From assembly GCF_014529625.1 (NCBI RefSeq), contig NZ_CP076039.1, positions 1,984,001-2,048,000 on the forward strand: a DNA stretch of 64,000 bases. The letters run 5' to 3'. The first letter of the stretch is position 1. Each line of letters opens with the position of its first letter. The position numbers and the translations under genes are program-made. Source of the stretch: Candidatus Pelagisphaera phototrophica (GTDB lineage: Bacteria > Verrucomicrobiota > Verrucomicrobiia > Opitutales > Opitutaceae). Shown here in pieces: positions 43,802 to 50,795 of this stretch. The notes below the pieces were generated by a model. It did not search any database and was not told where the DNA came from. It saw only the letters and a program-made list of their open reading frames with translations.

Positions 43802-44164
43802 ATGAGATCAACATTAACGAGCCTCATTAGAACCAGTTCATTCTTGGTTTTATTCAGTTCCTGCTTAGTCGCTGGGGCGAACAAACCGAATATACTCTTC
43901 ATCTTCGCGGATGACCAAAGCCACGAGACGATCGCGGCTCTGGGAAACAAGGAGATAAGGACTCCCAATCTCGACCGCCTTATAAATATGGGAACGGCTT
44001 TCACAAATACCTACAATATGGGTGCATGGAATGGCGCTGTTTGCGTGGCATTCCGCAATATGCTCAACACTGGACGATTCGTCTGGAGAGTGCATGCCAA
44101 GAAACCTGGGTCAATTCAGACACCGGATATGCCAGCTCGGATCTTGCGCCCATCCTTGGACTGA
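43802..44164 (+). pseudogene. truncated sulfatase gene with damaged active-site motif
   Basis: The frame encodes a signal peptide, PNILFIFADDQSHETIAALGN (first metal site) and NMGAWNGAVCVAFRNMLNTGRFVWR. In this sulfatase subgroup the motif is CVASR; here it is C81-V-A-F84-R, Ser replaced by Phe. After FVWR the sequence loses all sulfatase character and stops at residue 120, against about 480 expected. The 3' three quarters are deleted. A small enzyme is not plausible. It stands between the FG-GAP and PQQ genes of an otherwise intact run. Confidence 0.85.
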
Positions 44165-46499: not shown

Positions 46500-47231
46500 T
46501 GTTCCAGTTTAGAAAGCGCAGCCTACACAGCGAGTGGCATAAGGAACGGCAGCTAGCCTATCATTGGGAATGGGATTACCAGATTTTGCGCAGATGCCGT
46601 ACACTCTGTTTGGGGCGACTATTGATGTGGTGGCATTTGTCTGGATCGCGGAGGACCACATCGGCCTTCTGAATCAATTTGAACTGCCGTTTTGGCTCGC
46701 TGCTCTGACCGTATCGATCCTGTTCGATGCCTGGCTTTATGTCTGGCACCGGCTCAACCATGTCCTTCCGTTTTTCTGGCGGTCCATCAAGTCCATCTCA
46801 GTGACCTGGGAATGGACTTTTCAACTGCGTTGCGATTTTATCCAGGAGAAATTCTTTTTTCGTCGATCGTAAATATCGCGGTATTTGCCATTTTGGGAAT
46901 AAGCATAGAGCATCTAGTGATCTATAGAATTATATACAATATCAACATACTGTGGCATCACAGCAATATGGCCCTGCCCGAAAAATGGGACCGGTTGCTT
47001 CGTGCTGTGTTGGTCAGCCCCAGTATGTATCGGGTTCATCACTCTAAGAAAGTCAAGGAGACCAATTCCAACTATTCCAGTGTACTGAGTATCTGGGACC
47101 GCTTGTTTGGTAGCTACCGTTTTAGTGATCCGAAGAAGATCGTTTTTGGATTGGATTACGATCTTGAAGCGGAAGAGCAAATGATCGCCCGCTTGTTGAG
47201 CAGACCATTCAAACCCAAAAACGATCGGTGA
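46500..47231 (+). pseudogene. frameshifted sterol desaturase/fatty acid hydroxylase-family gene
   Basis: One frame gives FELPFWLAALTVSILFDAWLYVWHRLNHVLPFFWR. A second continues VHQVHLSDLGMDFSTALRFYPGEILFSS, HHSNMALPEKWDRLL and VSPSMYRVHHSKKVKETNSNYSS. Together they form a di-iron hydroxylase with His boxes HxxxH, HQVH(L), HHSN and RVHHS. The shift is at about 46783, where one base is missing in CGGTCCATC (a codon for Phe before HQVH is expected). The N-terminus is also out of frame. The third His of the second box is Leu here. The two open frames (46564-46872 and 46692-47231) are not separate genes. Confidence 0.75.
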
Positions 47232-47292: not shown

Positions 47293-47616
47293 ATGTTTTG
47301 GAAGTCTGTTAAAAAGATCACAGCGAAAGAAGCGATGGGTCTTATGGAGAATAGGAACGCTTTATTCATCGATGTGAGACTCCCAATGCAATACCGGAAA
47401 GGGCACATAAAGGGGGCTCTAAATGCTAATCGAAAAACGGTTCAGGAGGATCTAGATCTAGATGATAAAACGGTTCCCATTATCTGTTATTGCTACAGTG
47501 GTTTCTCCAGCAAGACCGCTTGCCGGAATTTGGAGCAAACCGGCTATGAAAACGTCTACAACCTAAGGAGGGGATTCCCTGCTTGGAAAAGGGCCGGAGG
47601 CGAAATTGAGAATTAA
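47293..47616 (+). CDS. single-domain rhodanese-like sulfurtransferase
   Basis: The 107-residue GlpE-type rhodanese transfers sulfane sulfur through a cysteine persulfide. Motifs are ALFIDVRLPMQYRKGHIKGALNANR (CH2A region) and IICYCYSGFSSKTACRNL with catalytic C67 in the CxxGxxS loop. NLRRGFPAWKRAGGEIE ends the fold. Cytoplasmic. An SDR gene follows within 80 bases on the same strand. Confidence 0.9.
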   Translation: MFWKSVKKITAKEAMGLMENRNALFIDVRLPMQYRKGHIKGALNANRKTVQEDLDLDDKTVPIICYCYSGFSSKTACRNLEQTGYENVYNLRRGFPAWKRAGGEIEN

Positions 47617-47694: not shown

Positions 47695-48387
47695 ATGACC
47701 ACAGTTCTTGTCACAGGTGCCAGCAGAGGGATTGGTTTAGAGTTTGTCAGACAGTATGCGCGCTCAGGATATTCAGTTATCGCGACCTGTAGAACGCCGG
47801 AAAAGGCGAACCAACTGACTGGACTGCTAAAAGGAGCTGTAAACATCTTGGTTGAGCCCTTGGATGTTTCGTCGGACAAAAGTCTCCAAGCATTGATTCA
47901 GGTGTTGAACGAAAGAGCGGTTACGATTGACCTACTAATCTCGAACGCGGGAACTCTAATCAATGAGCGCTTCCTCAATTGGAATCGGGATTCGTTTCGG
48001 AAAACACTGGACACTAATGTAGTCGGTTCGGCCATGCTAGGGCAGTCGCTCGATCCGTTTCTTTCCCAATCGGCTAAAGTGGTCCAACTATCGTCAAGAC
48101 TCGGTTCGTTGGAGTGGGGAGGGAAGGGGATGTCCGACGGAGATTCCTACGCAATCAGCAAGGTCGCTCTCAACATGCTGACGGTCAGGCTAGCTTCAAT
48201 TTACGAAGGAAGTAAACGAATCGCCGTCTCCATGAGCCCTGGCTGGGTAGCCACCGACATGGGGGGATCAGGGGCCACGCTCACAGTGGAAGACTCGGTT
48301 TCGAAGATGATTCCTACTATCGATGCGTTGACAGTATCGGATTCGGGTCGTTTTATTGATAATAAGGGATATTCTCTGCCTTGGTGA
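47695..48387 (+). CDS. short-chain dehydrogenase/reductase
   Basis: The 230-residue Rossmann-fold oxidoreductase starts MTTVLVTGASRGIGLEFVRQY (NAD(P)-binding TGASRGIG; Arg after Ala-Thr-Cys, ATCRTPEK, suggests NADP). ISNAGTL, Ser in VQLSSRLGS and YAISK supply the catalytic Ser-Tyr-Lys, and SPGWVATDMGG the cofactor loop. The longer frame from 47668 adds nine residues. It belongs with the cell-cell-signalling CsgA-like/'sniffer' type of classical SDR. Its stop overlaps the next start (GTGA), coupling it to ExbD genes. Substrate unknown. Confidence 0.9.
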   Translation: MTTVLVTGASRGIGLEFVRQYARSGYSVIATCRTPEKANQLTGLLKGAVNILVEPLDVSSDKSLQALIQVLNERAVTIDLLISNAGTLINERFLNWNRDSFRKTLDTNVVGSAMLGQSLDPFLSQSAKVVQLSSRLGSLEWGGKGMSDGDSYAISKVALNMLTVRLASIYEGSKRIAVSMSPGWVATDMGGSGATLTVEDSVSKMIPTIDALTVSDSGRFIDNKGYSLPW

Positions 48388-48809
48388 AGCAAAAAAAGTC
48401 GAGATTGCCGCTTAAACGACGAGACGCATCGAGCGTCCCGATGGCTCCCATGATTGACATGGTTTTTCTGCTGCTCGTTTTTTTTATGTGTGTCAGCTCG
48501 CTCTCGCAAGCCGGGCACCGAGTGGAGCTCGAGCTGCCGGAATCGACCGCTAGCGAAACGCCCAAAGACCTTTCTAATCGCATCATTCTTTCGATTCAAA
48601 AAGACGGAACGGTTTATCTGGGAGGCGCGAAAGTCGAAGAGGGTAAGCTGGAGGCCCGATTGCTTGAAATGCAGGAGCTCTACCCTGAAATCAAGCTTCG
48701 CATTAGGGCGGATCATGTGACTAAATTTGAGAATGTGAAGCAAGCGATGTCAGCAGCGACCAAAGCGGGAATCAGCGACTACATTTACGGGACGATTCAA
48801 GGGGAATGA
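48384..48809 (+). CDS. ExbD/TolR-family biopolymer transport protein (first copy)
   Basis: ExbD/TolR subunits form, with ExbB/TolQ, proton-driven motors acting on outer-membrane partners. The 141-residue product has the usual plan: basic cytoplasmic start, RRDASSVPMAPMIDMVFLLLVFFMC with the proton-carrying Asp in the single helix (D25), and a periplasmic domain (HRVELELPES, LSIQKDGTVYLGG, KLRIRADHVTKFENVKQAMSAATKAGI). The start is GTG at 48384, overlapping the SDR stop (GTGA); TTG at 48381 is an alternative. The next ExbD overlaps by ATGA. No ExbB gene is adjacent. Confidence 0.88.
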   Translation: MKQKKSRLPLKRRDASSVPMAPMIDMVFLLLVFFMCVSSLSQAGHRVELELPESTASETPKDLSNRIILSIQKDGTVYLGGAKVEEGKLEARLLEMQELYPEIKLRIRADHVTKFENVKQAMSAATKAGISDYIYGTIQGE

Positions 48810-49261
48810 ATATAAAGCGATCCAGTAAAAGGGGGAAGCGAGTTCGTATTGGAATTTTGGAGCTGCCGATTGCACCCATGATCGATGTCGTATTCCTGCT
48901 CTTGTTTTACTTTATGGTTAGTGCCACTCTTCAAAAACAGGAAGCGGACATTAGCTTTAGCTTGCCAGGCAGAATTCAACAGGACGAAGCCATCGAGATA
49001 CCAGACGAGCAGATTGTGCAGATTTTGGCCAATGGCCAAGCGCTCGTGAATGACTATCTCTACGACAGTCCGGAAGTGCCTCGTTATTGGCAACTGGAGA
49101 CGATGCTCAACCGTTTCCGAGAAGCCAGTGAATCGAATCTGGTGGAAGCTCGCATTACATTGGCGCCTGACGACAAGACGGCCCATGAAATGGTGGTTAA
49201 GGTAATGGACGCCTGCTCGCATGCTGGAATCGAGTCCGTTACGTTCGCATTCGCGGATTAG
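48806..49261 (+). CDS. ExbD/TolR-family biopolymer transport protein (second copy)
   Basis: The 151-residue second ExbD has basic N-terminus KRSSKRGKRVRIG, ELPIAPMIDVVFLLLFYFMVSATL with the key Asp (D27) in the helix, and a periplasmic part (DISFSLPGRIQQDEAIEIPDEQIVQILANGQALVND, VEARITLAPDDKTAHEMVVKVMDACSHAGI). Two different ExbD proteins in tandem are common in this phylum, usually after an ExbB, which is missing here. It overlaps the first copy by four bases. argH follows after about 130 bases and is probably separate. Confidence 0.88.
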   Translation: MNIKRSSKRGKRVRIGILELPIAPMIDVVFLLLFYFMVSATLQKQEADISFSLPGRIQQDEAIEIPDEQIVQILANGQALVNDYLYDSPEVPRYWQLETMLNRFREASESNLVEARITLAPDDKTAHEMVVKVMDACSHAGIESVTFAFAD

Positions 49262-49391: not shown

Positions 49392-50795
49392 ATGGGTAAA
49401 AAGTCGCAGGCTACATGGGGTGGACGCTTTTCGAAGGGACCGGCTGAACTGATGTTGACGTTCGGCGAATCGGTTTCATTCGACAAGCGCCTAGCGCCGT
49501 TCGATATCGCGGTGAACCGGGCGCACACCGCTATGCTGCACCATGTCGGATTGCTCACTCGCCGAGAGCTCCAAGCCATCCACAAAGGACTCAAGATTAT
49601 AGAAAAGCAGATTGCGGACGGAAAACTGAATTGGAATCCCGCATTCGAGGATGTTCACATGAACATCGAGCAAGCCCTAACCAAAATAGCTCCTGAAGCG
49701 GCTAAAATGCACACGGCACGGAGCCGGAATGACCAAGTGGCCACGGATTCACGTCTCTTTTTTAAGTATGCATGTGAACGCATCCTGTCGTTGTTGCAAA
49801 CGCTACAGAAGTCGATTTTGAAGGTCGCTGAAACCAATCAGAGCGTATCGATTCCTGGATACACGCACTTGCAACGGGCCCAGCCGGTTTCAGTCGCGCA
49901 CCACTTACTGGCTTACGTGGAAATGTTCAGTCGGGATGTCAATCGCTTCAAACGACTGCACGACGATTCCAATTGGTGTCCATTGGGTTCTGGAGCAATC
50001 GCGGGAACGACGTTGCCGATCGATCGGGAATTTACGGCTAAGGAATTGGGATTTGTCGATGCGAAGGGAAAGCCTCGCGTTACTACGAACAGCATGGATG
50101 CGGTTGCGGACCGCGACCTGTTCTTGGATTTTGGTCACGCCTGCGCAACTTGCGCCACCCATTTCTCTCGAATCTCCGAGGACGTCATTTTTTGGAATAG
50201 TACCGAGTTTGGATACGTGAATCTACCCGACGCGTTTTGTACGGGTTCGAGCTTGATGCCGCAGAAAAAGAATCCTGATTCAATGGAATTGCTGCGCGGA
50301 AAGTCCGGTCGGATTATCGGAAATCTCCAATCGCTTTACACGATGGTTAAGGGGCTACCTTTGACTTACAACCGCGATTTACAGGAAGACAAGGTTCAAG
50401 TGTTCGATAGCTTCGACCAAATCGAGCTTTGCCTGCAGGTCTTAGCAGGAACGATTGCTGGCATACGGTTCAATAAAGCCCGATGTAAGGATGCCGTAGC
50501 CGATCCTGGACTGTTAGCAACCGATTTGGCCGACTGGCTGGTGGAGCAAGGTGTGGCATTCCGGGATGCCCATCATGGGGTGGGAGCGATGGTAGCGAGA
50601 GCGGAAGAGCTTAAGATTCCCTTGAATCAGGTCCCGCAAAAAGATGCCGAAACGATTCACCCAAAGCTTAAGGGAGAATGGAGGTGCGTCTTCGATCTAG
50701 ACCGGGCCTTTAATTCACGGAAAGGAACAGGCATGCCGGGACCAGAGCAGATAAAGCGGCAACTGAATCGTTGGAACAAAGCCTACGGTTCTTGA
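49392..50795 (+). CDS. argH: argininosuccinate lyase
   Basis: It splits argininosuccinate into arginine and fumarate, the last step of arginine synthesis. The 467-residue product from ATG 49392 starts [21 protein letters not shown] (usual WGGRF start). Signatures: [65 protein letters not shown] and the fumarase/aspartase-superfamily loop [23 protein letters not shown]. The longer frame from 49335 is not supported. mutL starts 15 bases after the stop, so the two are probably co-transcribed. Confidence 0.97.

Follow-up and report, generated by a model that had tools for sequence, protein, structure and literature searches.

An ExbD pair translationally coupled to a short-chain dehydrogenase in Candidatus Pelagisphaera phototrophica, and its probable place in an ExbB-ExbD motor dispersed over three loci

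The window, a 64,000-nucleotide stretch of the single 4.09 Mb contig of Candidatus Pelagisphaera phototrophica (G000), carries a gene for a short-chain dehydrogenase (SDR), followed on the same strand by genes for two ExbD/TolR subunits, both of which score above the PF02472 cut-off, and by a gene that we take to be argH, encoding argininosuccinate lyase (Table 1). The SDR stop codon (TGA, 48385-48387) overlaps a possible GTG start of exbD1 at 48384 by four bases (GTGA), with an in-frame TTG nearby at 48381, and the end of exbD1 (48809) overlaps the ATG start of exbD2 (48806), again by four bases (ATGA). Both overlaps had been described in an earlier note on this DNA, and the coordinates bear them out. 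No exbB adjoins the SDR-ExbD1-ExbD2 genes at this locus. The order SDR-ExbD1-ExbD2-ArgH is shared by the five congeners whose ExbDs are intact and whose upstream stretch is visible (G002, G004, G005, G007 and G008), and in all five the SDR and exbD1 genes overlap by 4 or 7 bases; in G001 and G010, contig ends cut the stretch 5' of exbD1. ArgH is genomic context and lies outside the machine discussed below.

Table 1. Coordinates of the genes discussed. Single positions refer to the window; positions beginning with C1 or G000:C1 refer to the genome.
Feature	Position	Strand	Remarks
SDR, sniffer/carbonyl-reductase-like short-chain dehydrogenase	47695..48387	+	Alternative start 47668; Pfam adh_short E 1.7e-30
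ExbD1, one of two distinct ExbD/TolR subunits	48384..48809	+	PF02472, E 4.4e-27
ExbD2, second ExbD/TolR subunit	48806..49261	+	PF02472, E 4.4e-20
ArgH (presumed identity)	49392..50795	+	Labelled by similarity to the window gene; in many relatives also 3' of the ExbD genes
TPR941-TPR304-ExbB	G000:C1:248131-252600		Locus 1 of three
ExbD1-ExbD2	C1:2032384-2033261	+	Locus 2 of three, in the window
Lone membrane-anchored vWA gene	C1:900706-901713		Locus 3 of three; no motor gene among neighbours
ExbB_2729 (202 aa), then a TonB-like protein	G000:C1:2728778-2730066 (L056:4279-5567)		Second exbD-less ExbB

The genome as a whole contains 14 MotA_ExbB and 10 ExbD matches, so the description of the pair as being without any ExbB is true of the locus but not of the organism. 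Besides two MotA_ExbB matches that are presumably MotA-like, two ExbBs have no exbD nearby, ExbB_252 and ExbB_2729. ExbB_252, which matches PF01618 above the cut-off, lies 1.78 Mb from the window ExbDs in the order TPR941-TPR304-ExbB-RsmD (L055). In 11 more distant relatives, exbB is located directly 5' of exbD1-exbD2 as one operon, and the best match of this linked ExbB in our genome was ExbB_252 for every relative (11/11, with 5 of the 14 family members as the reference set). In most of these 11, exbB is preceded by a large TPR-type gene and another, smaller one, and linked operons often continue with a vWA-like gene. The smaller gene did not join TPR304 in BLAST clustering; by its position and weak TPR signals, it may be the same part. 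TPR304 has no Pfam match; its predicted structure (mean pLDDT 85.7) places a small beta domain ahead of TPR-like helices. An HDOD gene is found near the large TPR gene at 11 of 23 loci where exbB is split from the ExbD pair. Since these 11 loci are confined to the genus and near family, HDOD was left out of the machine.

Phylogenetic trees separate the split genes from their linked counterparts. Among 50 ExbB/TolQ sequences, including 11 paralogues from our own genome and excluding two MotA proteins, all 25 split-type ExbBs fall into a single clade (SH-aLRT 97) that sits inside a group common with 14 linked ExbBs (SH-aLRT 90) and apart from the 11 paralogues; this tree was built by a quick method with SH-aLRT support only, and has several open forks and long branches among the paralogues. 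Split-type ExbD1, ExbD2 and vWA proteins each fall on one side of a branch (90, 100 and 99, respectively), with linked ExbD2 requiring two changes on the ExbD tree. The earlier note had proposed to look for exbB elsewhere in the genome; ExbB_252 is such a gene, and it belongs to the matching clade.

We used ExbD2 and ExbB profiles to search 196 genomes of the order, and scored genes as linked if they were on the same contig and strand and less than 1000 bases apart. The analysis used the best 111 of 150 listed ExbD2 matches (E 1e-42 or better, rounded) and at least 112 ExbB matches (E about 1e-75 or better, with the weaker G073 and G125 among them). For 61 of these 111 ExbD2 matches, a clade ExbB was located 438-722 bases away, and for 50 it was not. 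Among the matches listed, exactly one clade ExbB was found elsewhere in 47 of the 50 genomes with a split ExbD2; G134 is counted as having both genes; its scores are those of the linked class, and contig ends may have interrupted a linked system there. A clade ExbB without an ExbD2 within 1 kb was found in 51 genomes, and no genome had two split ExbD2s or two split-type ExbBs, again among the matches listed. Both genes are on one contig in 7 of the 47 genomes. They are more than 1 Mb apart in four (G000, G055, G130 and G133), 30.5 kb apart in G073, and clustered in G106 and G223, where they are separated by 1.6 and 2.4 kb with a vWA gene between them and are "unlinked" by the 1000-base cut. 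In the remaining 40 genomes, the two genes are on different contigs of draft assemblies, from which a distance is not readable.

A linked and a split system occur together in 23 genomes, which makes them paralogues of each other and not alternative states of a single system. Among the matches listed, an ExbD pair was found without a clade ExbB in G043, G112 and G151, and likewise in the MAG G060, which was reached by its locus; G043 has the vWA gene nonetheless. Three genomes have the ExbB alone (G145, G150 and G230), because a fourth, G218, has an ExbD2 match below the cut on the same contig and is really linked. Fisher values for co-occurrence range from 5e-12 to 9e-37 (9e-37 for the order survey), but the genomes are related and these values overstate their independence. 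In a nearer set of 57 genomes, ExbB is present in 16 of 17 genomes with split ExbDs, the exception being G043. The G003 assembly is without the SDR-to-ArgH stretch and is therefore uninformative on ExbD there; its ExbB is present.

The separation of exbB from the ExbD pair is old and stable, and is found across the order. Recent local loss of exbB was rejected because the same arrangement is found in all five congeners that are readable upstream, and relatives with exbB between the SDR and exbD genes, which the earlier note had linked to a simple recent loss, were not seen. The suggestion of a rearranged motor operon is borne out and becomes concrete: an exbB of the matching clade, together with TPR genes, and a vWA gene are found at two other loci. 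The rearrangement is an old one.

The same parts are damaged in two genomes, G006 and G009. In G006 (97% complete), frameshifts and stops interrupt both ExbD1 and ExbD2, and the ExbB locus has a gap between an HDOD remnant and the final 14 matched ExbB residues, with both TPR genes missing. Other MotA_ExbB matches are also missing from G006, which has 10 compared to 14 in our genome. In G009 (85% complete), ExbD2 is broken, ExbD1 was undetected, ExbB is reduced to an 83-residue match, and there is no TPR gene at the locus. The break points differ, and the SDR is 91% identical to the window SDR in G006 and 59% identical in G009, from which we infer two separate losses. A TolQ-like ExbB (237 or 233 aa) beside an ExbD is kept in both genomes, as is ExbB_2729. 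In G073 (L213:6412-8773), 30 kb from the ExbD pair, the split-type ExbB has a short frame of 145 aa and the frames of the TPR genes are fragmented; this is possibly a further case of decay.

ExbB_2729 was rejected as the partner of ExbD1 and ExbD2, since G006 and G009 retain it despite their broken ExbDs. The same observation bears on the more general proposal that an ExbD pair with no motor of its own borrows another ExbB/TolQ, such as the TolQ-like one or ExbB_2729. There are many ExbB paralogues in the genome to borrow from, Ton and Tol parts can cross-complement in E. coli according to passages of PMC12215075, and a dedicated ExbB was not found in 3 of the 50 surveyed genomes among the matches listed. 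However, the other 47 do have an ExbB of the matching clade, and neither supposed lender has been lost along with the ExbDs, so we regard borrowing as unlikely. Co-occurrence and co-loss instead point to ExbB_252 as the partner of the window ExbDs.

The remaining locus holds a vWA gene. An AlphaFold model of its product has one transmembrane helix (residues 19-42), a low-confidence linker and a vWA fold (mean pLDDT 75.7). From residue 141, pLDDT is 83-96 per ten-residue block. Foldseek also recovers the vWA fold (E 6.7e-9), while the Pfam vWA match is weak (E 0.013). With the vWA protein of G223 as the query, relatives were detected at E 3.8e-26 or better in all 17 split-ExbD genomes of the nearer set and in G003, and there was no match in G006 or G009. 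Ten weaker matches (4e-16 to 9e-6) are all in linked-operon genomes; nine adjoin the linked ExbDs and that of G051 is elsewhere. In G223 (L209), all six genes are in one cluster, TPR-TPR-ExbB-vWA-ExbD1-ExbD2, and its ExbB, vWA, ExbD1 and ExbD2 all fall within the split-type clades. The vWA gene between ExbB and ExbD1 in G106 (L208:6907-7950) is frame-disrupted, due to either an assembly error or decay, while ExbB, ExbD1 and ExbD2 are open. Both genomes nest among split-type genomes, and their cluster is either a retained ancestral one or a re-assembly.

At one position of the vWA transmembrane helix, 16 of the 17 aligned split-type transducers have Gln, where all 8 aligned linked ones have His. 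Passages of PMC12215075 and PMC8928145 describe the SHLS residues, or the SHLS His, as essential in Ton/Tol, with the His contacting ExbB/TolQ in TonB and TolA. An essential His speaks against a simple His-to-Gln replacement, and makes docking of the vWA protein on ExbB less certain.

Thr161, Glu189, Thr193 and Thr194 of ExbB are conserved in all 22 aligned sequences, as are the transmembrane Asp25 of ExbD1 (20/20 aligned homologues) and Asp27 of ExbD2 (22/22). We take these positions to be equivalent to the E. coli channel residues. Judged from sequence, their conservation makes it likely that the ExbB-ExbD set is a working proton channel, and the maintenance of two ExbD clades side by side suggests a heterodimeric axle. 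Homology, clade membership, channel residues, co-occurrence, co-loss and the clustered relative together argue that a proton-driven ExbB-ExbD1-ExbD2 motor, with a vWA transducer and TPR proteins, is probably encoded over the three loci, with the SDR as a passenger.

In such a machine, ExbD1 and ExbD2 would be the axle subunits of a 5:2-type inner-membrane motor. Five copies of ExbB_252 would enclose an ExbD pair, probably one ExbD1 and one ExbD2, and form the proton channel; protons passing the ExbB Thr and ExbD Asp residues would turn or strain the axle. In the manner of TonB or TolA, the vWA protein would dock on ExbB through its single transmembrane helix, and the periplasmic vWA domain would pull on an envelope target, perhaps via the TPR proteins. 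If the parts do assemble physically in this way, with the ExbDs as a heterodimer, the part list suggests a target and cellular role that would be envelope-mechanical, applying force at the surface or outer membrane. More tentatively, this could be a distinct trans-envelope force machine of the order, with an obligate ExbD1/ExbD2 heterodimer and a Gln-coupled vWA protein, whose genes are mostly dispersed yet are kept or lost as a unit, and are clustered in one genus.

Sniffer-type and other carbonyl reductases (1yo6, 5tqv) are among the solved structures nearest to the SDR. Among 23 related ExbD loci checked, 8 have, like the window, a same-strand SDR gene immediately 5' of exbD1, and none was found in the other 15, in 2 of which ExbD1 was unrecognised and no SDR was labelled. 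Both G006 and G009 have an open SDR frame. In G006 it is intact with a dN/dS of 0.15, similar to those of ArgH (0.11) and MutL (0.17), although both ExbDs of that genome are broken. Apart from co-translation, nothing in the comparisons made ties the SDR to the motor. It was rejected as a motor part on the basis of the 15 loci and of G006, and is probably a passenger, translationally coupled to exbD1 in this genus but otherwise unrelated. On the same evidence, the proposal that a cytoplasmic reductase takes the place of exbB is correct for position and not for function.

The earlier note had also raised the possibility of an ExbD complex with a new use. In one form of this idea, the SDR would act on or with ExbD1 and ExbD2 and no ExbB would be involved. 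Conservation of the 4- or 7-base overlaps in the genus is what such a complex would have in its favour, but it is disfavoured by the loci without the SDR, by the intact enzyme of G006, a genome in which both ExbDs are pseudogenes, and by the retention of the channel Asp in both ExbDs, and we consider it very improbable. Even harder to credit is the idea that the ExbDs are functionless leftovers persisting through coupling to the SDR: decay is seen in G006 and G009, but the G000 ExbDs are intact with the channel Asp, the ExbB, TPR and vWA genes are present, and several families of the order retain the gene set.

The probable three-locus motor has the same channel subunit families and a single-TM transducer in common with Ton (ExbB-ExbD-TonB) and Tol-Pal (TolQ-TolR-TolA), but has two distinct ExbDs, and a vWA domain in place of the C-terminal domain of TonB or TolA. 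Scores against the NCBIfam Tol models are 76.8 bits for ExbB_252 (cut-off 221) and 55.8 and 50.3 bits for ExbD1 and ExbD2 (cut-off 127.3); against the Ton models they are 47.1 (cut-off 206.2), 46.2 and 27.0 bits (cut-off 152.95). TPR941 (L055:132-2957) exceeds the NCBIfam tol-pal YbgF cut-off (117.8 versus 90.1 bits) even though its ExbB and ExbD partners are far below the Tol models. The AglR-AglQ-AglS gliding motor of Myxococcus also has one ExbB/TolQ-like and two ExbD/TolR-like subunits; the subunit count is the same, and the accessory proteins here are TPR and vWA proteins. Its ExbB, ExbD1, ExbD2 and vWA fall in clades separate from those of the linked systems in the order.

The closest kin is the TPR-tolQ-tolR-tolR-vWA cluster of the Tichowtungia family. 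Passages of PMC12204202 (MBE 2025) describe PVC clusters of TPR, tolQ-like and two different tolR-like genes with a vWA force transducer, in which the genes are often, but not always, adjacent and many members have the SHLS His. The same gene set (TPR, tolQ-like, two different tolR-like and TM-anchored vWA genes) is present in our genome. It differs in being spread over three loci rather than one, with a single cluster in the relative G223, and in having no SHLS His in its transducer TM, where Gln is found instead and linked transducers have His. Because of this Gln, we file it as a sister variant, not a member, of the PVC vWA system. Among the papers listed by literature searches for split ExbB, ExbD and vWA genes, PMC12204202 alone looked relevant, and "orphan" and "unlinked" do not occur in its main text. 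What is new here is the conserved dispersal and the Gln in place of the transducer SHLS His. A puzzling gene pair thereby becomes a six-gene system with a defined, testable part list, and an ExbD pair that looks orphaned can be part of a dispersed, co-inherited motor that surveys by operon neighbourhood would miss. The natural His-to-Gln variant also bears on how transducer helices couple to ExbB/TolQ.

Some frames upstream of the ExbD pair also appear disrupted, in the window or in a relative. The rhodanese gene 5' of the SDR (47293-47616) is frame-disrupted in G006 (L120:5820-6127). A 120-aa frame at 43802-44164, the start of which resembles a sulfatase, has an early stop and may be a truncated gene. 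Two overlapping frames of 102 and 179 aa at 46564-47231, which we take to be membrane hydroxylase/desaturase-like, may be one frameshifted gene; a relative (L061:2492-3343) has a single open frame that matches this gene.
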